This document shows, one piece after another, positions 2,105 through 23,026 of a stretch of DNA of 26,829 nucleotides. The translations under genes and the position numbers were made by a program. Each line of letters opens with the position of its first letter. The stretch's first letter is position 1. The stretch comes from Treponema sp. Its GTDB lineage: Bacteria; Spirochaetota; Spirochaetia; Treponematales; Breznakiellaceae. Location: positions 1-26,829 of the forward strand of contig JAIRSD010000270.1 in the NCBI GenBank assembly GCA_031255615.1. The letters run 5' to 3'. Under the pieces are notes generated by a model. That model saw nothing but the letters and a program-made list of their open reading frames with translations, was not told the origin of the DNA and searched no databases.

Positions 2105-2271
2105 TGTTAACCACGAAGGCGCACCAAGGTACACGAAGGAATAAGAGGAGCGCGGAGCAGCCCCGCCGCGGAGCGCCGGGGCCAGGGCGGAACCCTGGCG
2201 GCCTGCGGCTGCACTGACGGTCTGATCCCCGCCGGTGGCGGGGATCAGACCGCCGTATATGCGGTATACGG
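2105..2271. repeat. Repeat fragments and two strong hairpins between pgsA and the M32 gene
   Basis: 2105-2143 is a shortened relative of the CACGAAGG-type repeat (TTAACCACGAAGGCGCACC, later ACACGAAGGAAT). 2150-2215 contains GCGGAGCAGCCCCGCC and GCGGCTGCACTGA, which match parts of the modular hairpin repeat. A perfect 16-bp stem with a GGT loop spans 2218-2252, and CCGTATA/TATACGG forms a second hairpin at 2253-2271. Neither has a T-tract, so they are not typical intrinsic terminators, although they lie just beyond the stop of the M32 gene. Confidence 0.65.
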
Positions 2272-2300
2272 AGTCTTACAAACGGGGAACCGCCGGAGAA

Positions 2301-3833
2301 TCAGAGGCCGTAGAGTTCCCCGTACTTGGCTTCGATGTAGTCCAGGAAGGGATGGGGGGAAAGTTTCTCCCCCACGGCCTCGTGCAGGAGTTCCGGCGGG
2401 GAAAGACGGCAGCCCCAGGAGTAGACATGCTCCGAAAGCCACGAGAAGACCGGCTGGAAATCACCGGCGGCCAGGGAAGATTCAAGGTCTGGGAGGTCCT
2501 TCTTCATCCGGGCCCAAAACTGGAGGCTGTAAAGATTGCCCAGGGCGTAGCTGGGGAAGTAGCCGAAGGCCCCCATGGACCAGTGGACATCCTGGAGGAC
2601 CCCATCGGCATCGGTGGGGCTTTCCATATCCAGGTAGCGGCGGCTGTACTCCCGCCAGCGGCGGGGGAGATCCTCCGGCGGCAGCTCCCCGGCGATAAGC
2701 TGCTTTTCCAGTTCAAACCGGAGGATAATGTGAAGGGCGTAGCTAATCTCATCCGCGTCCACCCGAATAAGGGAGGGCCGGCACTGGTTCAGCGCCCGGT
2801 AGAAGACATCAGCCTGGAGGGTCCCAAGCTGGGCGGGGAAATGGCGCCGCAAAACGGGAAAGAGGCCCTCCCAGAAGGGGCGGCTGCGGCCGATAACGTT
2901 TTCCCACAGCCGGGACTGGGATTCGTGGATCGCCATGGAGGCGCCGTCCGCCAGGCAGGAGCCCCGGAGTTCCGGGGGAAAGCCCATCTCGTAGAAGGCG
3001 TGGCCCGATTCATGGATGACCGAAAAAATGCTGGAAAGAAAATTGCCGGGAAAATAGCGGGTGGTGATCCGCACATCGTCGGAACCGAGGGAGGTAGTAA
3101 AGGGATGGGCGCTGGTATCCAGACGGCCCCGGCTCCGGTCAAAGCCCAAGTAATCCATGAGACAGCCGTTAAAGCGGACCTGGGTTTCGATATCGTAATC
3201 CTGGTTGAGGAAGGGGTAGTCCTCCGGGGGGCCGATCCGTTTAAGGACGGCGCTCAGCCGTTCCTGAAGGGGGCCGAAGATCTCGTCAATCTCCGCGGCC
3301 CCCAGGCCCGGTTCGTAGATATCCAGGAGCCCGTCGTAGAGGCTGCCCTTCCCGCCCCCGGCATCAGAGTAGCCCCAGTACCGCGCCCTCTTCCGAGCGT
3401 TCTCTATCATAACGGAAAGGTGGGGCAAAAAGGCAGAAAAATCATCGGCCCGCCGGGCCTGGGCCCAGGCGGCCTGGGAAAGGCCCTCCGCCCGGGCGGC
3501 GGCCCGCACGAAATCCTCGGGAAGTTTTATTTCCCTGTCGTAGGAACGACGCAGGACCCGCAGAAAATCCCGTTCCAGGGGCGGCAGGGATTCATCCCCC
3601 CGGGGATTCTCCGAGGTAGAACCCAATTCGTCCAGGAGACGGCCCGTTTCCGGGGAAACCAGACGCTGATGGGCAAGACCCTGGAGCAGGGCGAGCTGTT
3701 CCGCCCGCTCCCCGACCCCTTTAGGAGGCAGGCAGGTCTCCTCATCCCACTGCAGCACCGCCAGGGCCTTCTCAAGGTACCGGTATTCCCGGTCTATACG
3801 GTGCAGTTTTTCCAACGCTTCGCTTGATTTCAT
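2301..3833 (-). CDS. M32 family metallocarboxypeptidase (thermostable carboxypeptidase Taq type)
   Basis: A 510-residue cytoplasmic zinc peptidase expected to trim C-terminal residues from peptides. Landmarks, numbered from the chosen start: the family motif D..RGRLD.SAHPF at about 232-245, the zinc-binding HESGH at 274-278, and IHESQSRLWEN at about 302-312, which supplies the third ligand and the M32-specific residues. Length matches the usual 490-510 of the family, and no signal peptide is seen. An in-frame ATG exists 27 bases upstream at 3858-3860 but has no ribosome-binding site. The ATG at 3831-3833 is preceded by GGAGG with five bases spacing and is preferred. The upstream ATG lies in a 13-bp sequence that is duplicated at 3925-3937. 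The gene appears monocistronic. Confidence 0.93.
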   Translation of the reverse strand: MKSSEALEKLHRIDREYRYLEKALAVLQWDEETCLPPKGVGERAEQLALLQGLAHQRLVSPETGRLLDELGSTSENPRGDESLPPLERDFLRVLRRSYDREIKLPEDFVRAAARAEGLSQAAWAQARRADDFSAFLPHLSVMIENARKRARYWGYSDAGGGKGSLYDGLLDIYEPGLGAAEIDEIFGPLQERLSAVLKRIGPPEDYPFLNQDYDIETQVRFNGCLMDYLGFDRSRGRLDTSAHPFTTSLGSDDVRITTRYFPGNFLSSIFSVIHESGHAFYEMGFPPELRGSCLADGASMAIHESQSRLWENVIGRSRPFWEGLFPVLRRHFPAQLGTLQADVFYRALNQCRPSLIRVDADEISYALHIILRFELEKQLIAGELPPEDLPRRWREYSRRYLDMESPTDADGVLQDVHWSMGAFGYFPSYALGNLYSLQFWARMKKDLPDLESSLAAGDFQPVFSWLSEHVYSWGCRLSPPELLHEAVGEKLSPHPFLDYIEAKYGELYGL

Positions 3834-3848
3834 GGGATCCTCCGGCGG

Positions 3849-4023
3849 CATTAAAGTCATAGTTTCAAGGCAGTCGCGGACCTGCGGTCCGAGTCCATCA
3901 TGGGTCTACATTATGGCAGACTCCCATTAAAGTCATAATTGAAGTCATATAAAAGCCTGCTCCAAAACTAATTGACGCTGCGCTAACGATCCCGGCATGG
4001 CCGGGGGCAAAGTTTTGGAACAG
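3849..4023. repeat. Direct and inverted repeats between the M32 and kinase-like genes
   Basis: CATTAAAGTCATA occurs at 3849-3861 and again at 3925-3937. TCCAAAACT (3961-3969) is inverted as AGTTTTGGA (4011-4019), enclosing a CCCGG/CCGGG hairpin at 3991-4005. The remainder, to 4183, holds short imperfect repeats of GAACAACNNCGAA character and no supported gene. An 87-codon minus-strand frame at 3898-4161 has no Shine-Dalgarno sequence and no recognisable domain. Confidence 0.5.
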
Positions 4024-8640: not shown

Positions 8641-9213
8641 TCAGCGCAGGGAGCGGATCGCCTCCTGGGTCATGCGGTCGCAGCGTTCGTTCATTTCGTT
8701 CCCCGCGTGGCCCCGGACCCAGGCCCAGGCAGGCTGAAAACGGCCCGCCAGGGCATCCAGACGCTGCCAAAGGTCCTGATTCTTGACCGGCTCCTTGCCG
8801 CCGGTGCGCCAGTTGTTCTGTTTCCACCGGTGGATCCACTGGGTGATGCCCTTTTGGACGTACTGGGAGTCGGTGTAGACGGTGATCCGTCCGGGGGGGG
8901 CCTGTTCCAGGATGGGGGGCAGGGACTCCAGGGCGGAGATGACGGCGGTAAGTTCCATCCGGTTGTTGGTGGTGTTGGGTTCCGCCCCCCATTTTTCCGC
9001 GAGAACGGCCGTTTCCCCCCGCTGAAACGGGGTTTTAGGGGCGGAAGCCCCTAGGAGAGGGGGGTGGGGAGCGACGGGCCCCGGCGAAGCCGGGGGTTGG
9101 CGCGCCCCAGGGGGGAGGCTTCCCCCCCCATGATTCCCTAACACAATATAGGCCCAGCCTCCGGGCCCGGGATTCCCCGAACAGCCCCCGTCGGTATAAA
9201 TCGTTATGTCCAT
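8641..9213 (-). CDS. rnhA: Ribonuclease HI with an in-frame insertion
   Basis: A 190-residue enzyme that degrades RNA in RNA-DNA hybrids. All catalytic residues are present: D8 (YTDGG), E87 (NNRMEL), D115 (YTDSQYV), D179 (ERCD) and H169. In E. coli RNase HI the first two acidic residues are 38 apart; here they are 79 apart. The about 41 extra residues (27-67, Pro/Gly/Ala-rich) lie between the first two strands and correspond to bases 9013-9135, which form three successive hairpins. The insert keeps the frame open and would form a surface loop. The start is the ATG at 9211-9213, with AGGAG ten bases upstream. It overlaps the end of sdaAA by ten bases, so it is probably the last gene of the sda operon. 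Confidence 0.93.
   Translation of the reverse strand: MDITIYTDGGCSGNPGPGGWAYIVLGNHGGGSLPPGARQPPASPGPVAPHPPLLGASAPKTPFQRGETAVLAEKWGAEPNTTNNRMELTAVISALESLPPILEQAPPGRITVYTDSQYVQKGITQWIHRWKQNNWRTGGKEPVKNQDLWQRLDALAGRFQPAWAWVRGHAGNEMNERCDRMTQEAIRSLR
9013..9135. repeat. Hairpin-rich insert inside rnhA
   Basis: Three adjacent hairpins: AGGGGC-GGAA-GCCCCT (9037-9052), CCCCGGC-GAA-GCCGGGG (9079-9095) and GGGGGGA-GGCT-TCCCCCC (9110-9127). The length fits the extra 41 codons of this RNase HI. It resembles the palindromic style of the intergenic repeats here but does not share their core motif. Confidence 0.6.
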
Positions 9214-10178
9214 GAATCGCTGTCTCCTGTGGGAAGGCCCCCCGTTCTTGCTTTGACGGACCGGCCTGTGGGGGTGAGGGCCAGGCCGCCGCCGGCGCTT
9301 TCCCGGACGGCAGCAGGCATGGCGTCGCCGATCTGTTTCATTGCCCATACCACTTCGTCGAAGGGTATTATGCTGGGAACCCCGGCCAGGGTCAAATCCA
9401 CGGCCAGGAGGGCGTTTAGGGCCACGAAGGCGTTCCGTTTGACGCAGGGGACCTCCACCAGGCCGGCCACCGGATCGCAGACCAGGCCCAGGGAATTTTT
9501 CAGCGACAGGGCGGCGGCGGAAAAGCAGTCTCCCAGGGGTTTCGCTTCCAGGTAGGCCAGGGCGCAGGCGGCCATGGCTCCCGCGCTTCCGCACTCCGCC
9601 TGGCAGCCTCCTTCGGAACCGGCCAGGGTGGCTCCCTGGGCGATGAGGACTCCCGTGAGGCTCGCCGCGAGGAAGGCCCCCCGGAGGCGGGGATGGTAGG
9701 GAGGGTCCAGCATGGGGGGCGGGGATTCGGGGCGGTCCGGGTTTCCCGCTCCGCCGTTTTGGGGGGCCCGGCTGTTTTGGCTGTCCCACCAGGCCCAGAT
9801 GAGGCCGGGGACGATGCCGCAGGACCCGGCGGTGGGGAAGGAAACGACCTTGCCGCCGCAGGCGTTTACCTCGTTGACGGCCAGGGCGTAGGACACGGCC
9901 CGGCGGTACAGCCTGTCTTCCACCAGCCGCCGTTCCGCCCGAGCGAAGGCCGCCGCGGCCCCCTGGGTGAGGCCGGACCGGGATACCTGGGGGCTCCCCA
10001 GGCCCTTGATAAGGGCGGTCCTGGTTACGGCGATACGGCGGTCAAGCTCCCGGTAGACGGCGTTTTCCGGGATTCCCGCCATAAAGGATTCCCGCTTGAC
10101 CGCGTAGTCCTCCAGGGAGACCTTTCCCTCCCGGAGGTTGGCTTCCAGCTCGGCGAAAGTATGGAACCGGTATTTCAC
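9204..10178 (-). CDS. sdaAA: L-serine dehydratase, iron-sulfur-dependent, alpha subunit
   Basis: A 324-residue subunit of the oxygen-sensitive enzyme that converts L-serine to pyruvate and ammonia. Recognisable blocks: FPTAGSCGIVPG (114-125), GSEGGCQAECGSAGAMAA (187-204) and GLVCDPVAGLVEVPCVKRNA (231-250). The cysteines C120, C192, C234 and C245 include the expected [4Fe-4S] ligands. Residues about 131-166 are a Pro/Gly/Asn-rich stretch longer than usual between GLIWAWW and the next helix. The start is a GTG at 10176-10178 that overlaps the sdaAB stop by four bases (GTGA), indicating translational coupling. The 3' end overlaps rnhA by ten bases. Confidence 0.93.
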   Translation of the reverse strand: MKYRFHTFAELEANLREGKVSLEDYAVKRESFMAGIPENAVYRELDRRIAVTRTALIKGLGSPQVSRSGLTQGAAAAFARAERRLVEDRLYRRAVSYALAVNEVNACGGKVVSFPTAGSCGIVPGLIWAWWDSQNSRAPQNGGAGNPDRPESPPPMLDPPYHPRLRGAFLAASLTGVLIAQGATLAGSEGGCQAECGSAGAMAACALAYLEAKPLGDCFSAAALSLKNSLGLVCDPVAGLVEVPCVKRNAFVALNALLAVDLTLAGVPSIIPFDEVVWAMKQIGDAMPAAVRESAGGGLALTPTGRSVKARTGGLPTGDSDSWT

Positions 10179-10987
10179 AGGGCCCCCAGGGAGGGGACCC
10201 GCATGACCCGGTAGATGGGGGCCAGGGCCTCGATGTGGCCCAGAATCTCCGGGGGGATGGGGCTGTCGGTCTCCACCACCAGCAGGGCGTCCTCCCCCTT
10301 TTCCTTGCGGAGGCTGGATGTCCCGGCCATGTTGATGCCGGCGGCGGCCAGAATCCGGGACACCTGGGCGATGACTCCGATTTCGTCATGGTGGAGGACC
10401 AGGAGGGCCTCCAGTTCGCCGGAAAGGTTCACCCGGTAGCCGTCGATTTCGTCCACCCGGATGGAACCGCCCCCGATGCTTGATCCCCGGATGGACAGGC
10501 GGGGCCCGGCGTCCGAGGGGGGAATGCCTCCCGGCGGAGGACCGTCCGGGGTCAACGCGGCGGGTGAGGCTCCGGGGGACGAAGCCCCGGCGGGGGGAGA
10601 ACCGGCGGCGGGTTCCGGCCTTTCAAAGAGTTCGATTGAGAGGGTGTTGGGATGCCAGGAGGGGGGCAGTTCATGGACCGGGAGGATCCGCAGGGCGAAG
10701 CCCTCCCCCCGATTCCGCAGTTCCTCCAACAGCTCCCGGCCCCGGAAAAGCCGCTCGTCCTCCGGGGGGATGCCCAGAAGCCCCGCCGCCGCCGCGTCGG
10801 CGGAACCGTGGCCTTCCCAGGTGGAGGCCAGGGAACCGTAAAAGCGGACCAAGGCCCGTCCGGGGGCGGCGCCGAACATTTTTCGGGCCAGAAAGGCGAT
10901 TCGGGCAACCCCGGCGGTATGGGAACTGGAGGGCCCTATCATGATGGGGCCGAATATTTCAAAGAGGGGGACGTTTTCTTTGGGCAT
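10175..10987 (-). CDS. sdaAB: L-serine dehydratase, iron-sulfur-dependent, beta subunit
   Basis: A 270-residue partner of SdaAA. The N-terminal FGPIMIGPSSSHTAG (12-26) is the hallmark of the beta subunit, and residues about 193-265 form an ACT domain (LLVLHHDEIGVIAQVSRILAAAGINM) that may bind serine or regulate the enzyme. Typical beta subunits have about 220 residues. The excess is mostly a Pro/Gly/Ala/Ser-rich insert at about 126-162, between the substrate domain and the ACT domain. AAGGA lies eight bases before the ATG. It is the first gene of sdaAB-sdaAA-rnhA. A TATGAT sequence at about 11020-11025 on the minus strand could be its -10 box, but no good -35 was seen. Confidence 0.93.
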   Translation of the reverse strand: MPKENVPLFEIFGPIMIGPSSSHTAGVARIAFLARKMFGAAPGRALVRFYGSLASTWEGHGSADAAAAGLLGIPPEDERLFRGRELLEELRNRGEGFALRILPVHELPPSWHPNTLSIELFERPEPAAGSPPAGASSPGASPAALTPDGPPPGGIPPSDAGPRLSIRGSSIGGGSIRVDEIDGYRVNLSGELEALLVLHHDEIGVIAQVSRILAAAGINMAGTSSLRKEKGEDALLVVETDSPIPPEILGHIEALAPIYRVMRVPSLGAL

Positions 10988-15658: not shown

Positions 15659-18600
15659 TTACAGGACCTCCCCCGGCAGGGCGGTTCCCGGGGACCCCGA
15701 ATACCCAAGGTCCTCAAGCCCCGCCTTCACCGATACGGAGGCGGCCCCCTGGCCTTCCAGGAACCGGCGATTCCCCTTCCGGTGGGGCAGTCCCGCGGCA
15801 ATCTCCTCCCGCCGCGCCCGGGCCCGGGCGTCCCGTTCGTCGGAATGGCGGTTAAAGATGTAGTAGACCGTGGGCATCAGAAAGAGGGTCATCAACGAAC
15901 CGAAGGAAAGGCCCCCCAGCACCGTCTTGCCGATGGGGGCTACCATCTCCGATCCTTCTCCGGGGAAGAAGGCCATGGGCACCAGGCCCAGGATCGTCGT
16001 CAGGGTAGTCATCAGGATGGGCCGAAGCCGGTTCCCCGCGGCCTCCACACAGGCTTCGTGGAGGGGGATTCCCCGTTTGCGGAGGGTGTTCGTGTAATCA
16101 ACCAGGACGATGCCGTTGTTGACGATGACCCCCACCAGCACCAGAAGCCCCACGGCGGTAAGGATGTTAAAGGTGTCGCCGGTGATAAGGTAGATGGCCA
16201 CAATGCCGATGACCGACAGCGGGATGGTGAGGAGGACGATAAAGGGATCCCGGAAGGATTCAAAGAGGCTTGCCATGATACCGAAGACCAGGGCCACGGC
16301 CACCGCGATGACCAGGGCGAACTTGAACATCAATTCCACCATCTCCGAGTTGTCCCCGGCGAATTCGATGACCACATCGTCTTCCGCGGGAATCTCCTGG
16401 GTAACAAGGGTGCGGATCTTCCCATCCAGCAGGTTAAGTTTGGTCCCCGGAGGGGCCCCGGCGGTAACGTGGATGACCCGGCTCTGATTTTCCCGGTTGA
16501 TGGTCATGGGGCCGGTCCCTTCTTTATAGGCGGCAAAGTTGGAAAGGGGGACCCTGCCCCCCGCCACCTGGCTGTTGACGAAGATATGATCCAGGGCGGG
16601 CCGGGTGCTGCGATCCGCCTCCGCCAGGCTCAGGACCACATCGTAATCATGGCCGGCGCTTTTGTAGCGGGTGGCGGTGATGCCGTCCACGGCGGCTTTA
16701 ATCTCGTTCCCAATGGTGAAGGTGTTAAGCCCCAGGGCGTAGATTCTTTCCCGGTCAAGCTCTATTTCGATCTGGGGAAGGCCGTCTTGCAGGCTTACCC
16801 GCGGTTCCGTAACTTCCCCGGGAAGCCGATCCTTCAGAAGGGCGGCAATCCGCTCCGCCAGGGCCTTTCCCTTTTCCAGGTCGTCAACCCGGATCGCGAT
16901 GTCCACGGGATTACCGCTGCCCATCATCATGCCGCCGCCGAAGTTAAAGATAACGCCGGGGAATTCGTTAAAATGATCCCGCATAAGGGCCTTTATTTGG
17001 TCCGCGTCCATGATCCGCTCGCTGTAACGGGGCAGATTGATCCGCAGGGATCCCGTATTGGCGCCCCCGCTGGAGAACATGCCCCCGCCGCCGACGTTCA
17101 CCACAATATCATCGTAACCCTGGATCTCCCGCTCCACGATGGTCTGAAGCCGGTGCAGGGTCGCTTCGGTCTCCGCCAGGGGCGTACCCATGGGCAGGGT
17201 GGCGTTTATTGATACGTTGTCCTGATCCTGGGGGGGCATAAAGACCCAGCCGATGACCCAGATCATGAAGATGCTGCCCACAAAAAGGACGAAGATCATC
17301 GACAGGGTGATAATTTTATGGCCCAGGACCCAGTTGACGGAACGGCGGTACAGGTTCCCCAGGCCGTCAAAAAACCGCTCAAAAGCCTGGTCGATGGGCT
17401 TCAGAAAACCCCGCAGGGGCTTCTGCTTCCGGGTAACCAGGGGGAAGTAGTGGCTGGAAAGAACGGGGACCAGGAAGATGGCCACCAGAAGGGATGAGGC
17501 CAGGGAAATTACCACCGTAAAGGCCAGGCCGGAGAACATTTCCCCCGCAATCCCCAGGAGGTCCTTGAACATTACCAGGGGGGCGAAGACGCAGATGGTG
17601 GTAAAGGTGGAGGCCACAATGGCGATAAGCATCTCCTGGGTGCCGATAACGCTGGCGGTGGAAAGTTTGGCCCCCTTTTCCCGGTAATGGTAGATGTTTT
17701 CCAGGATAACGATACTGTTGTCCACCAGCATCCCCACCCCCAGAATCAGCCCCGCCAGGGTCATCATATTCAGGGTAAGGTCGGCAAAGTACATCAGCAT
17801 AATAGTGATGACAATGGACACCGGGATGCTTACCCCGATGATCAGGGTGGGCTTAGCGGAACGCAGGAAAATAAACAGTATGACTATGGCCAGCACCGCC
17901 CCGCTGAGGGCGCTGGAACCTACCTGGTTGATCGAATATTCGATTTGATCGGTGCTGTTGAAAAGCTCGGTGATCTTAATATCCTGGGGAATCTCCTCGG
18001 CGATTCGGTTAAGCCGGGTCCGCAGTTCCTTGGCGGTTTGGACGGAATTCTTTCCGCTTTGCTTTTGAACCTGCATCATCACCGCAGTCTGGCCGTTTAC
18101 ATAGACCAGGCTGGATTCGTCCCGGTAGCCCTCGTACACATCCGCCAGATCCCGGAGGTACACGGTCTTCGGCGGTTCTATCCCCGCCATGGAAACTCCG
18201 CCCCCCTTGTAGGAGATGACGGTGTTGCGGATCTCCTCCAGGGAGCTGTATTCCCCCATGGTGGTCAGGATGTAGGAGAGCCCCCCTTCGGTGATGGTCC
18301 CCGCGGAGACCTGCTGATTATTGGCCGCCAGCATCTGCTGGATCTGGGTAACCGTAAGGCCGTAAGCCTCCAGCCGGTTCTGGGGTATCTCCACCCGGAT
18401 AATTTTCTCCCGTCCGCCGTTCACCGAGGCGGTGGCGACTCCGGGGACCTGCTCGATCCGGGGCACGATGGTAGTTTCGGTTATTTCCCGCAGTTCCTCC
18501 GGGGAACGGTTTCCCGTAACCATAAGCCCCATGATGGGGATCATGGAGGGATCGAATTTAAAGATCATCGGGGTATCGGAACCGGCGGGCAGATAGTTCC

Positions 18601-18946
18601 TTACCCGCTCCAGGGAGTCCCGGACGGAGTTCGATGCGTCCGCCAGGTCCGTCCCGTAGGTAAACTCCATTATCACCATACTGGAGCCCTTGGAGGAGGT
18701 GGAGGTTACCGTTTCCAGGCTGGAAACACTGGAAAGGACGGCCTCCAGAGTCCGGGTTACCGACCGTTCCACTTCCTCCGGTCCCGCGCCGGGGTAATTC
18801 GTATAGACCACCAGCATGGGCATATTGATCTCCGGCATTAAGTCGATAGGAAGATTGATAAAAGCAAAGAGGCCCAGCAAGATGAGGAGTACGAAGAATA
18901 CAAAAACAGTAGTGGGCCGTGAAACAATGGTTTTAGTTAAACTCAT
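15659..18946 (-). CDS. RND-family efflux transporter, AcrB/HAE1-like inner-membrane pump
   Basis: A 1095-residue inner-membrane transporter with the duplicated RND architecture. TM1 is at about 12-34, a large periplasmic porter loop follows to about 340, TM2-6 lie between 345 and 490, a second half starts near 545 with a second periplasmic loop, and the final TM cluster runs to about 1040. The proton-relay segment in TM4 reads GMLVDNSIVILEN (405-417), with D409 followed by Asn where AcrB has two Asp residues, as in many HAE1-like pumps. The second-half counterpart is VGVIVNNGIVLVDY. It would export small molecules, lipids or drugs by proton antiport together with the adaptor and TolC-like factor encoded next to it. 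AAGGA precedes the ATG, and 24 bases separate it from the adaptor gene. Confidence 0.95.
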   Translation of the reverse strand: MSLTKTIVSRPTTVFVFFVLLILLGLFAFINLPIDLMPEINMPMLVVYTNYPGAGPEEVERSVTRTLEAVLSSVSSLETVTSTSSKGSSMVIMEFTYGTDLADASNSVRDSLERVRNYLPAGSDTPMIFKFDPSMIPIMGLMVTGNRSPEELREITETTIVPRIEQVPGVATASVNGGREKIIRVEIPQNRLEAYGLTVTQIQQMLAANNQQVSAGTITEGGLSYILTTMGEYSSLEEIRNTVISYKGGGVSMAGIEPPKTVYLRDLADVYEGYRDESSLVYVNGQTAVMMQVQKQSGKNSVQTAKELRTRLNRIAEEIPQDIKITELFNSTDQIEYSINQVGSSALSGAVLAIVILFIFLRSAKPTLIIGVSIPVSIVITIMLMYFADLTLNMMTLAGLILGVGMLVDNSIVILENIYHYREKGAKLSTASVIGTQEMLIAIVASTFTTICVFAPLVMFKDLLGIAGEMFSGLAFTVVISLASSLLVAIFLVPVLSSHYFPLVTRKQKPLRGFLKPIDQAFERFFDGLGNLYRRSVNWVLGHKIITLSMIFVLFVGSIFMIWVIGWVFMPPQDQDNVSINATLPMGTPLAETEATLHRLQTIVEREIQGYDDIVVNVGGGGMFSSGGANTGSLRINLPRYSERIMDADQIKALMRDHFNEFPGVIFNFGGGMMMGSGNPVDIAIRVDDLEKGKALAERIAALLKDRLPGEVTEPRVSLQDGLPQIEIELDRERIYALGLNTFTIGNEIKAAVDGITATRYKSAGHDYDVVLSLAEADRSTRPALDHIFVNSQVAGGRVPLSNFAAYKEGTGPMTINRENQSRVIHVTAGAPPGTKLNLLDGKIRTLVTQEIPAEDDVVIEFAGDNSEMVELMFKFALVIAVAVALVFGIMASLFESFRDPFIVLLTIPLSVIGIVAIYLITGDTFNILTAVGLLVLVGVIVNNGIVLVDYTNTLRKRGIPLHEACVEAAGNRLRPILMTTLTTILGLVPMAFFPGEGSEMVAPIGKTVLGGLSFGSLMTLFLMPTVYYIFNRHSDERDARARARREEIAAGLPHRKGNRRFLEGQGAASVSVKAGLEDLGYSGSPGTALPGEVL

Positions 18947-18970: not shown

Positions 18971-19954
18971 TTATTTGGCGCTTCCGCTTGATTCCGCGGT
19001 TAGGGGTGGCAGACGCTCAATGATATTAACCTTGGCGCCATCTTGCAGCAGAGTCTGTCCCCGGACGATGATCTCGTCCGTCGGCGAAAGCCCCTCGGTG
19101 ATTTCCAGCACTCCGTCGATAAGGATGCCGGAACTGACATTTCGACGGCGGGCCACCGAACCCTCCCCGTTGTCGTAATCCGGTTCCACGACAAAAACAA
19201 AAATTTCGCCGAACCGTTCCACCAGGGCGTTGGCGGGAATCTTAACGATGTTTTCTTTTGTTTCGGTGATAAGCCGTACCTTGGCGAACATTCCGGCCTT
19301 CAGCTTCGAATCCCGGTTGTCCACATTGACCCGGACTTCCATGGTGCGGCTGGCGGGATCCACGGTGGGGGCGATCTCGTTTACCGTACCCCGGAAAACT
19401 TCTCCGGGCCAGGCGTCCAGGGTAATTTCGCAGGGCTGCCGTAGTTTGATTCGGGAGATGAACCGTTCCGCCACATAGAGCCGGATCTCCAGCCCCCCGC
19501 CGGCGGCAATTTTCGCCAGGGATACCTGCTGGCTTATGGTCATCCCTATCTGGGCGGGGAGGCTTACCACGGTCCCGCTGACAGGGGCCCGGACCACGCT
19601 TTCCACAAAATTCATCCCCGGCCGGGAGGGGTCCACCAGAACGATGGGGTCCCCCCGGCGCACCGCGCTTCCGGGGCTTACATAAAGCCGGGTAATCTTC
19701 CCCGTCGCGTCCGAGTAGGTATCCACGGTGGAACCCGCCACGATGTCCCCGGACAGGGCCAGGTAATCCTGGATCCGCCCCTGGCCGGGGGTGGTGGTGT
19801 TTACCGCGAAGACCGGGGCCTGGGGCTCCGGGGGAGGGGCGTCCTTGTTGGCAAGCCTCTCCTGAAAAGCCTGTATCCTGTCGCAGGAACCGAGAACTCC
19901 GCATATAAACAAAGCCAGGGCCGCCCCGGCCCCCAAGAATCTTTTCCTGTGCAT
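18971..19954 (-). CDS. RND efflux periplasmic adaptor (membrane fusion protein), lipoprotein
   Basis: A 327-residue adaptor linking the RND pump with the outer-membrane channel. The signal ends in LGSC with C24 as the lipidated cysteine. After a short linker come the split lipoyl/barrel-sandwich halves (about 70-105 and 113-145: VDTYSDATGKITRLYVSPGSAVRRGDPIVLVD, VRAPVSGTVVSL), a beta-barrel domain (about 150-235) and the membrane-proximal domain (GILIDGVLEITEGLSPTDEIIVRGQ). The coiled-coil hairpin between the lipoyl halves is very short, which occurs in some adaptors. The ATG shares one base with the TolC gene stop (TGATG) and has AGGAG eight bases upstream; a TTG directly before it is a less likely start. 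Confidence 0.92.
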   Translation of the reverse strand: MHRKRFLGAGAALALFICGVLGSCDRIQAFQERLANKDAPPPEPQAPVFAVNTTTPGQGRIQDYLALSGDIVAGSTVDTYSDATGKITRLYVSPGSAVRRGDPIVLVDPSRPGMNFVESVVRAPVSGTVVSLPAQIGMTISQQVSLAKIAAGGGLEIRLYVAERFISRIKLRQPCEITLDAWPGEVFRGTVNEIAPTVDPASRTMEVRVNVDNRDSKLKAGMFAKVRLITETKENIVKIPANALVERFGEIFVFVVEPDYDNGEGSVARRRNVSSGILIDGVLEITEGLSPTDEIIVRGQTLLQDGAKVNIIERLPPLTAESSGSAK

Positions 19955-21516
19955 CAATTTTCTCCTTGCCGCGAACCGAGGGTCCCGAAGGGAAGGCCCA
20001 TCGCGTATTCGAGTTCGATTAGGCTGTTCCGGTAGTTAAATTCCTGTTCCAGGATTCCCAGCCTTGCCTGGTGGAGCTGAAGCTCCGCGCTCTGCACCTG
20101 GAGAAGATCCTGAAGCCCCGCCTTGTAAGCCGCTTCGGTCAATGCGTAGGACTGTTCCGCCATAGCGACGGTCCGGTTCTGGGCTTCCACGGTGGACTGT
20201 ATCCTCTCCAATGTGAGGAGGGTGTTGTAGATCTCCAGTTCCGTCCCCCGGATCATCTGGTTTATGCCGAGGGCGGTGGTTTTTATTTGATTGTCGATGT
20301 CTTTGACAGCCTGCCCCTCCTTGGTGAAGGGGAAAAGGCTGTTCAGCGAAATGCCCAGAGTAATGGAGAAGGTCCCGCTGTCGCTCCAGTTGTCCTTATT
20401 AAACCACTCGTCTTTAAAGGGATCCAGGGCCGGACTAAAGGTCGGGTTCAGGCTCCAGTCAAGGCGGAGATAGGGGGTGTTGCCCTGGAGGAACCGGGCT
20501 TTGCGGGTTTTTTCCAAAAGCTCAAGCTGGCGCCGCAGTTCCCGGATATCCGGTTTGTGCCGCACCGCTTCCCGGACAAGTTCCGCCAGGTCCAGGGGGA
20601 TAAAGCCGGTCTCCTCCGCCTCCGGGACCAGTTCAAAGAGGGTCTCGTAGGGAAGCCCCAGGGTCATGGCGAACCTGGCCTGGGCCAGGGCGAAGCCGTT
20701 TTCCGCCTGGTCGATGGTGGGCCGCATGTTATCCCGGGAAACCTGGGCCTGAAGCAGGGTTAATTCCGGGGCAAGGCCGGCCCGGTAGTTGGCCTGGGCC
20801 ATGGCGACCTGCCGCTCCGCCGCTTCGTAACTTTCCCGGAGCAGGTCGATGTTCTCCATAAGAAGGAGCATGCTGTTGTAATCCTTCCGCAGATCCCGCT
20901 CCAGTTGGAGGCGGGCCTTTTCGTAGGTTACCAGCCCCGCCTGGTAATCCGCCCTGACGGCCTGGATTCCCGCGAAAAGGGCGGTGCTGAGGGTAAGGGC
21001 GGCGGAAAAGTTCCCCTGGACATGCCAGGGGGAAACTTCCTGCGAGTAGGGCATCATATAATTATAGAGGGGCCCCAGGGGAGTAGGTATTTCGAGGGGG
21101 CCGTAATTATTGGCGGTAAGCCAGGAATCCAGCGCCTGGGTTTGGCTGTTCAACGGCACCGGGGTTATCCCGCTTACCTTAGTCGCCTCATTCTGCCGCG
21201 CCAGGGTTCCCCGCACCGACAGGTCCGGCAGGAACTGGTTCCAGACCAGGTCGTTGGCCCGCCGCTTGGTGTCCAGGGCGACGGCCCCGGACTGGAGGGA
21301 CAGGTTGTTTTTCAGGGCCAGGTCCACCGCCTCCTCCACGGTAAGGCGCATCCGCTCCGCCTCCTCCCCAGGAGTTCCCGCGGCGGATTCCGCAACGTTT
21401 CCGCCGCCCGCCGTCTGGGCCCCCAGGGAAGCCCCCGCCAAGGCCAGGGCCATGAACAGGACCGCCAGCCTCGGCCCCAAAGCCAACCGGGCTCCGGGCC
21501 ATCCGTTTCCACGCAT
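19954..21516 (-). CDS. TolC-family outer-membrane efflux protein
   Basis: A 520-residue outer-membrane channel component. It has a signal peptide (to about residue 33, after ALALAGASLGA), then two outer-membrane efflux protein repeats rich in long alpha helices: the first starts LTVEEAVDLALKNNLSLQ (58-75), and the second is near 290-510, with the typical LRRQLELLEKTRKARFLQGNTPYLRL and the C-terminal helix QARLGILEQEFNYRNSLIELEYAMG. It forms the exit duct for the adaptor and pump encoded downstream. AAGGAG is six to seven bases before the ATG. The 136-base gap to the regulator gene shows no clear promoter or terminator, so it may be co-transcribed with the regulator. Confidence 0.93.
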   Translation of the reverse strand: MRGNGWPGARLALGPRLAVLFMALALAGASLGAQTAGGGNVAESAAGTPGEEAERMRLTVEEAVDLALKNNLSLQSGAVALDTKRRANDLVWNQFLPDLSVRGTLARQNEATKVSGITPVPLNSQTQALDSWLTANNYGPLEIPTPLGPLYNYMMPYSQEVSPWHVQGNFSAALTLSTALFAGIQAVRADYQAGLVTYEKARLQLERDLRKDYNSMLLLMENIDLLRESYEAAERQVAMAQANYRAGLAPELTLLQAQVSRDNMRPTIDQAENGFALAQARFAMTLGLPYETLFELVPEAEETGFIPLDLAELVREAVRHKPDIRELRRQLELLEKTRKARFLQGNTPYLRLDWSLNPTFSPALDPFKDEWFNKDNWSDSGTFSITLGISLNSLFPFTKEGQAVKDIDNQIKTTALGINQMIRGTELEIYNTLLTLERIQSTVEAQNRTVAMAEQSYALTEAAYKAGLQDLLQVQSAELQLHQARLGILEQEFNYRNSLIELEYAMGLPFGTLGSRQGEN

Positions 21517-21652: not shown

Positions 21653-22438
21653 TCAACAAACCTGCGTCTGGGGGATAAGGTCCCCCATGCCCCGGACGAT
21701 AAGCCGGTAGAGATTCCGAAAGGTTTCGTTGGGAATCTTGGAAAACTCCTTTCGGGAAAACTGCCTTCTGCTGACCTTTGGCATACTCAGCCATTCGGTA
21801 AACCTTTTCTTGTCCACCCGGGCGTAGTGCATCAGGGAGGTTACCTCCAGAAAAAGGATCCACGCGGGGATCCAGTCCCCTTCGGCATTCCGGAAACGGC
21901 CCTTAACATCCGGGGAGACCTGAAGGCCCCGGAAGATCCGGTAAAGCCGGGAGGGAACCTTGTCCTCCGCCGGTTCCGGGAACTCGATGCGCCGGGTCCG
22001 CAGCCAGTCCAGGGCGATAAGCACGTCCGGCCGGGACCGGAGGTAGTCGCCGATAGAGAAGATCGCCAGGTAAAGCCGCTCCGCCGGGACCGGGGAAAAC
22101 TTCATACTCTCCTCCGCGAACCCGATGATCCGCTCAATTTCGGTGGCGAAAAGCTGAAACAGCATGTCCCGCTTGTTTTTAAAATGGGCGTAGAGGCCGC
22201 TTTTGGAGAGGCCGGAAATTTTCGCCACCATCTCCATGGAAACCCCCCAGGGACCGGCGCAGGCCACCGCCTCCGCCACGGAATGGAGCAGCTCATTCTC
22301 CTCTATCCGCAGACCGATGCCGGTAACTTTGTCCTCCAGGCCCTTATAATCCAAGGCGTCCACCTCTTTCTTTTGAAACCCAAGGCCGTTGAAAATGATA
22401 CAATAAACCAGCGAAATATCCCTTTCTATCGCGCCCAT
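21653..22438 (-). CDS. C-terminal half of a split double-TetR regulator
   Basis: The frame is open from upstream of the poly-G tract. The ATG at 22436-22438, preceded by AGGA and the G tract, is the first plausible internal start and would give 261 residues. It begins with the last helix of the preceding TetR module (ERDISLVYCIIFNGLGF), then a second complete TetR/AcrR DNA-binding domain (VSMEMVAKISGLSKSGLYAHFKNKRDMLFQLF) and its own ligand-binding helical region. Removing one G from the 13-G run joins it in frame with 22344-22961. Whether it is translated separately, by reinitiation or only in fused form is unknown. Confidence 0.75.
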   Translation of the reverse strand: MGAIERDISLVYCIIFNGLGFQKKEVDALDYKGLEDKVTGIGLRIEENELLHSVAEAVACAGPWGVSMEMVAKISGLSKSGLYAHFKNKRDMLFQLFATEIERIIGFAEESMKFSPVPAERLYLAIFSIGDYLRSRPDVLIALDWLRTRRIEFPEPAEDKVPSRLYRIFRGLQVSPDVKGRFRNAEGDWIPAWILFLEVTSLMHYARVDKKRFTEWLSMPKVSRRQFSRKEFSKIPNETFRNLYRLIVRGMGDLIPQTQVC

Positions 22439-22961
22439 CGCGTCTTCCTGCCCCCCCCCCCCCGGCGGATCTTTCGGAAGGCCCAAGCCGGTGGAAGTAA
22501 GCCAGGGCAAAGGTAAAGGTGGCGAAGATCATCCGTATCGCCAGGGGATAGGGGGCGTCCTTCAAAATCCGTTCAAAGATCCCCAGGTCCACCCCCCGGC
22601 CCGCCAGGAATTCATGGGGACTCCCCAGCCGCCGCTCCCCGTAAACATAAATAAGAGAAAACACGAAGGACTCGGCATTCCCGGCGTAATAGCGCATAAT
22701 AGCCCCGATCAGGATAACAAGGGTCTCCCTGGCATCCACCGCGGCGAGGGCCCGCCGGTACTCGTCCTTTATCTTGGCGGTATAGTCATCGACAAACCAT
22801 TCGTGCATGGCCTCCAGGAGGGCCTGTTTGGAGCAGAAGTGCCGGTAGAGGGCGGCCTTGCTGACCCCCAGTTCCCCGGCCACGTCGCTCAGGCTGGTGG
22901 TCCGGTAAAAGTTCCTGCCCCAGACCTTAAACGCCGCGTGAATAATGTCCGTCCTGGTCAT
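22344..22961 (-). CDS. TetR/AcrR-family regulator, N-terminal half, frameshifted at a G13 tract
   Basis: As the sequence stands this encodes 205 residues. Residues 1-47 are a TetR-type DNA-binding domain (TSLSDVAGELGVSKAALYRHFCSKQALLEAM). The helical effector domain runs to FTFALAYFHRLGPSERSA at about 167. At the run of 13 G (coding strand) the frame leaves the conserved sequence, and the last about 35 residues (Arg/Gly-rich, then hydrophilic) look like shifted reading. With 12 G, or 15, the protein continues into the frame at 21653 to give a double-TetR product (435 residues with 12 G). It lies directly upstream of the efflux genes in the same direction and is their likely regulator. The ribosome-binding site is weak (GGGG). 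Confidence 0.8.
   Translation of the reverse strand: MTRTDIIHAAFKVWGRNFYRTTSLSDVAGELGVSKAALYRHFCSKQALLEAMHEWFVDDYTAKIKDEYRRALAAVDARETLVILIGAIMRYYAGNAESFVFSLIYVYGERRLGSPHEFLAGRGVDLGIFERILKDAPYPLAIRMIFATFTFALAYFHRLGPSERSAGGGGAGRRDGRDRKGYFAGLLYHFQRPWVSKERGGRLGL
22451..22463 (-). repeat. 13-base homopolymer (C on plus strand, G on coding strand) inside the regulator gene
   Basis: An uninterrupted run of 13 identical bases encodes the GGGG linker between the two TetR modules. Homopolymers of this length are prone to slipped-strand changes. Exactly one base fewer restores the full reading frame. Confidence 0.95.
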
Positions 22962-23002: not shown

Positions 23003-23026
23003 ATGTTACCGACCGGTCGGTAACAT
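23003..23026. promoter_or_regulatory. Perfect 24-bp palindromic operator for the TetR regulator
   Basis: The half-site ATGTTACCGACC is followed immediately by its exact reverse complement. The central ACCGACCGGTCGGT is typical of operators bound by TetR-family dimers. It starts one base beyond the predicted -10 box and covers the expected transcription start of the regulator gene, a position suited to autorepression. Confidence 0.82.

Follow-up and report, generated by a model that had tools for sequence, protein, structure and literature searches.

The window analysed here, the whole stretch of 26,829 bases of a Treponema sp. contig (JAIRSD010000270.1), carries what seems to be an autoregulated RND (resistance-nodulation-division) efflux operon. 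The gene of its tandem TetR repressor is frame-broken at a slippage-prone run of 13 G. Since replication slips on long G tracts, this run could plausibly act as an on/off switch; we put the probability of this reading at about one half. In the proposed mechanism the repressor, encoded by the first operon gene of a termite-gut-type treponeme, would form a single-chain pseudo-dimer similar to Mce3R and would bind as such to a perfect palindrome that precedes the operon. The tract breaks the frame in the loop that joins helices 8 and 9 in the first module, leaving a short product that would keep one DNA-binding domain and lose half of the share of module 1 in a four-helix bundle as well as the second module. 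Such a product is not expected to stay on the operator, which would leave the operon derepressed, and changes in tract length would turn the repressor on or off and in this way set the pump level. The broken gene consists of the following parts:

22344..22961, minus strand: open reading frame (ORF) A, 205 aa, TetR module 1 with its DNA-binding domain and the helices up to about α8
22451..22463, minus strand: tract of 13 G (13 C on the plus strand) in the α8–α9 loop of module 1
21653..22510, minus strand: frame B, 285 aa, last helix of module 1 and the entire second TetR module
22436..22449, minus strand: possible internal start just past the tract, AGGA followed after 7 nt by the ATG of frame B, judged from the sequence only

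The two TetR modules are consecutive on the minus strand and stand in two different reading frames, and the pieces in ORF A and frame B both match the Pfam family TetR_N above its cut-off of 24 bits (50 and 29.9 bits), in agreement with an earlier sequence-only reading that had seen two same-direction frames, each with a TetR DNA-binding domain. The uninterrupted run of 13 G at which that reading had placed the break was confirmed at 22463–22451 on the coding strand, and it is here that the reading frame of the regulator gene is set, as in a contingency locus. ORF A continues for about 35 out-of-frame residues beyond the tract, and frame B opens before the tract and shows homology only past it. 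As the intact relative P0004 matches in both frames (residues 1–164 with 81% to ORF A, residues 170–433 with 79% to frame B) and as all conserved residues of a family alignment of 99 sequences are kept across both pieces (25/25 invariant and 66/66 nearly invariant), the gene seems undamaged apart from the tract. The comparison with intact relatives also bore out that frame B supplies the final helix of module 1 together with the complete module 2. Two independent TetR genes were considered and rejected since the relatives carry a single gene, and an old pseudogene was rejected since every conserved residue is retained. The 13-mer is the sole run longer than 8 in the window, where G/C runs of at least 6 occur 41 times with length 6, 4 times with length 7, 5 times with length 8 and once with length 13; by a first-order estimate 0.07 G and 0.05 C runs of 13 or more would be expected per window, about 0.12 in total. 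A promoter and terminator scan gave one site of each kind, where shuffled sequence gave 0.6 promoter-like and 3.6 terminator-like sites.

A family-level search gave a match at E ≤ 1e-3 in 155 of 195 genomes, 11 of them weak (E above 1e-8) and possibly other TetR genes. From these matches a subset of 130 loci from 127 genomes was compiled, in which both modules are found in one frame at 120 loci, 9 are cut by contig ends and only one (L203) is broken. This supports the idea of one ancestral double-TetR protein and speaks against homologues in which the two TetR domains are always separate genes. Double TetR regulators had been called uncommon, which holds insofar as few have been described, but in this lineage they are the rule. 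Among the best relatives listed many are single proteins of about 400–465 aa, with P0004 (436 aa) being 79% identical, and intact relatives of 431–447 aa exist (P0004 and P0006–P0010), a range that includes the 435 residues given by the earlier reading for the joined protein. The regulator relatives include one from the termite isolate Leadbettera azotonutricia (P0075). The pump relatives in named genome records (29 loci) are all titled Treponema sp. or Spirochaetaceae, and those among them with at least 71% identity are metagenome-assembled genomes (MAGs) with accessions JAIR to JAIT, presumably from termite guts.

The candidate operator and the genes of the pump surround the regulator as follows:

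23003..23026: perfect 24-bp palindrome ATGTTACCGACC/GGTCGGTAACAT, likely operator, 5' of ORF A
19954..21516, minus strand: outer-membrane efflux protein (OEP), next gene downstream after a gap of 136 nt
18971..19957, minus strand: membrane fusion protein of the HlyD type
15659..18946, minus strand: RND transporter of the AcrB/AcrD/AcrF family (E 2.1e-237)

All three pump genes run in the same direction as the regulator, confirming the RND system that had been noticed downstream. The 18-bp core of the palindrome occurs only once in the window, and its 14-nt core ACCGACCGGTCGGT lies 46 nt upstream of ORF A. With up to 3 mismatches the 14-bp core is present within 200 nt upstream of 110 of 124 genes (window included), compared with 1 of 118 control stretches 300–500 nt past the gene and 7 of 119 stretches 0–250 nt past it. 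An OEP gene comes next downstream at 108 of the 114 relative loci with at least 700 nt of downstream sequence; at the other 6 of these 114 no pump gene was found downstream. From this arrangement we infer repression, and the simplest reading is that the regulator acts as an autorepressor of the RND operon by binding to the putative operator. The conservation of the palindrome indirectly supports operator binding as expected of a TetR/AcrR regulator. Two Treponema loci from other sources, L023 and L026 (the latter titled Red deer), have RND pumps with 48% and 46% identity and match the tandem regulator distantly (E 7e-11 and 3e-20), and the regulator–pump arrangement could predate the termite lineage.

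In a predicted model of the intact relative P0004 both modules match TetR structures, the helical domain included, and the best fold match is Mce3R, a tandem TetR single-chain pseudo-dimer; the two modules are predicted to fold in the same way. The α8–α9 loop of this model shows pLDDT values of 57 (residues 161–170) and 73 (residues 171–180). Helices 8 and 9 of Mce3R belong to an intramolecular four-helix bundle (PMC11667970). Because the tract falls within module 1, in the loop that leads into its last helix, and not between the two DNA-binding modules as first assumed, and because the Mce3R counterparts of the flanking helices take part in this bundle, the short product is probably non-functional. 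Thus, instead of the suggested choice between a one-domain and a two-domain repressor, we infer a change between on and off.

Evidence that the tract length changes comes from the homologous loop of two close relatives from outside the species of the window. L170 (genome G100) has 14 G at the module-1 loop and an open frame of 402 residues, and L203 (genome G099) has 10 G and is broken; the two genes are 97.2% identical, and their alignment holds no indel other than the tract. Like the gene order, the conserved palindrome and the break, this opposite frame state of near-identical relatives can be read directly from the sequences compared, and reversible switching appears plausible. The proposed switch by slippage is thereby borne out for differing tract lengths with an open and a broken frame, and goes beyond the data in its population-level reversibility. 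Past the tract the two genes differ at 19 positions in 712 nt, and since 14 of these are synonymous and 5 non-synonymous, the half behind the L203 break is without sign of decay; before the tract 12 differences in 480 nt (4 synonymous and 8 non-synonymous codons) lean to the non-synonymous side, in small numbers. L182 and L166, with 82% and 74% identity, are without the tract. When the tracts of G099 and G100 were compared at 22 and 30 loci (30 of 33 G100 matches) plus L203 and L170, with 5 runs near contig ends excluded, only the regulator tract had a partner, the comparison being limited to partners of at least 8. A third case at the same loop is probable from the proteins P0124 (173 aa, ending in FPRGGG) and P0039 (234 aa), which correspond to the two halves of the intact P0016 with 82% and 83% identity, each encoded on a contig of 21,058 bases, and would represent one broken gene. 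P0123 (208 aa, contig of 5,298 bases) ends with RPTGGGGL just past the last helix of module 1 and may be a fourth break, at a tract in the module junction.

G or C runs of at least 8 lie in or next to the matched stretch in 32 of 131 genes (window included). Within the matched stretch of the 130 relatives we found 21 such runs against 5.8 expected from the tract density of the genomes, and 11 runs of at least 12 against 1.3 expected, about eightfold. Compared with the flanks, the gene has 21 runs of at least 8 in 152 kb against 12 in 290 kb (p 0.0006, kinship of the loci ignored); this contrast is slightly flattered as runs near the stretch ends were dropped from the count and not from the length. 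By alignment, 31 tract positions (window included) distribute to the helix 8–9 region of module 2 (11), the loop 326–345 (5), the C-terminal tail (4), the helix 8–9 loop of module 1 (4), the module junction (3) and elsewhere (4). In the tail, past the last helix, where the frame is immaterial, the poly-C lengths of L141, L144 and L149 (83–86% identical) are 10, 17 and 14. At L145, L043, L194 and L211 the stretches end in or just past long G runs of up to 69 G in or beside the regulator gene, which probably reflects artefacts of sequencing or homopolymers at which the assembly broke off.

Several results weigh against a switch at this tract. The fold similarity is limited, as Foldseek against Mce3R gave a TM of only 0.44 with an rmsd of 10.1, and for runs of at least 12 the excess over the flanks is modest (11 in 152 kb of gene against 6 in 290 kb, 3.5-fold, p 0.01, kinship ignored). 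The tract at the module-1 loop is not conserved, since no G/C run there exceeds 7 in 120 of 124 genes and since the closest intact relatives, compared at the protein level, lack four consecutive Gly in this loop; of the one-frame relatives with a polyglycine linker that had been expected, the single frame is thus the norm, and such a linker is not seen in these closest ones. Of 31 other loci with a tract, the frame stays open in 26 and is broken in one (L203); in the remaining 4 the contig ends within or shortly past the tract. With 3 tail tracts excluded 23 of 24 frame-critical tracts are open, compared with about one third if lengths were random, in a set drawn from a score-ranked list that may favour open genes. 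The same in-frame lengths recur in related species, in two triplets and one pair (14/14/14, 15/15/15 and 15/15), which argues against fast free slippage. Finally, the tract of the window was not seen in any independent copy, the only 100% identity among the best 120 of 400 and 8 of 8 protein matches being to its own contig. As tail lengths vary and frame-critical ones are kept, the runs do change over time and selection seems to hold the frame, a pattern that fits either a switch that is mostly on or purifying selection with occasional losses.

The main rival, which we consider rather unlikely, is a homopolymer error, with the real gene being open and the tract length in the contig being a sequencing or consensus mistake. 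It would explain why both gene halves are fully conserved and nearly all relatives open, and the window is one metagenome contig in a group of MAGs where some poly-G runs end contigs and look artefactual (L145, 69 G). The tract of the window is, in contrast, internal with unique sequence on both sides, the difference of 14 to 10 G exceeds the usual miscall of one base, and the same loop is also broken in a different assembly (L203, seen in DNA) and probably in a third (P0124/P0039, seen in proteins). Long runs are also present in the single-contig genome G142 (4,059,867 bases), which has 14 runs of 12 or more.

We regard as less probable still, and as unlikely, a one-way loss, in which the repressor is dead in this strain, the pump constitutively on and the G run a product of neutral drift in a tolerant Gly-rich loop. 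That tracts are found mostly in length-variable loops and tails and that most relatives have kept the frame, as expected under selection with occasional breaks, would suit this explanation, and mutations in an efflux repressor that derepress the transporter are reported for Rv0678/MmpR5 (PMC10353445). Neither half has decayed further in the window, however, the same loop is broken in two lineages and probably in a third, and the tract persists in both L170 and L203. Slippage of RNA polymerase or the ribosome on the G run, which would yield some full-length protein and make the break an attenuator and not a genetic switch, is very improbable even if a long homopolymer lies at the frame junction and frame B is already open before it, as the tract is absent in most relatives, so that the mechanism would not be conserved, and as slippage during transcription in bacteria is described chiefly for runs of A or T.

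Returning to the slippage-prone tandem repressor, its closest known counterpart is Mce3R from Mycobacterium tuberculosis (PDB 9b7y), which likewise has two TetR modules in a chain of about 400 residues. Mce3R shares only 16–17% identity with the spirochaete regulators and forms a single-chain pseudo-dimer, which for the spirochaete family is so far a prediction. In the accessible text on Mce3R (PMC11667970) the operator is non-palindromic, in contrast to the perfect or near-perfect palindrome that is the candidate site of the spirochaete family, the controlled genes are those for cholesterol, oxidative stress and lipid transport and not an RND operon, and a G tract is not mentioned. Repressors of the AcrR, TtgR and MtrR type also stand beside RND pumps, and chains of MtrR, TtgR and AcrR are found as sequence matches. 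They are single-module proteins acting as homodimers, whereas here the modules are fused and the regulator gene is collinear with those of the pump. For poly-G phase variation in Treponema pallidum (for example of the tpr genes), a member of the wider spirochaete group, G-tract length is likewise proposed as the switch. These cases concern surface-protein genes of a pathogen, unlike the present tract, which lies in the coding sequence of a pump regulator from bacteria that probably live in insect guts. Rv0678/MmpR5, mentioned above, belongs to another regulator family and has a short run and drug-selected mutations, with no long tract. We found no paper on the present case in the mostly open-access literature on phase variation in termite Treponema, homopolymers in spirochaetes and double TetR fusions.

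Taken together this is a widespread family of tandem-TetR/RND operons with tract-prone loops, and it considerably enlarges the small set of tandem TetR regulators described so far. More tentatively, it could be that in termite-gut treponemes the recurrent G/C tracts in the helix 8–9 loops of tandem TetR repressors serve as a contingency switch, in which a break would remove a bundle helix, and in module 1 also the second DNA-binding domain, would turn the single-chain pseudo-dimer off and would set the pump level in subpopulations. If the tract does switch, bacteria of insect guts that are probably not pathogenic would have a multidrug-type pump under a phase-variable regulator, and contingency loci might also serve bet-hedging against plant or host chemicals. 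With the palindromic site and the RND gene order, repression by a single-chain pseudo-dimer would be easy to test.

As 174 of 195 genomes in the same bacterial family contain at least one stretch of 12 or more G that follows another base, the question extends genome-wide, and a family-wide set of slippage loci is possible; no paper on homopolymer slippage loci across this family was found in the literature on phase variation in termite Treponema and spirochaetes. Elsewhere in the window, a frame of 530 codons on the plus strand (2235–3827) runs antisense to an M32 carboxypeptidase gene (2301–3860, minus strand) and is probably a GC-rich shadow frame, and the alpha and beta parts of a serine dehydratase are encoded by two overlapping genes on the minus strand (9204–10178 and 10175–10987).
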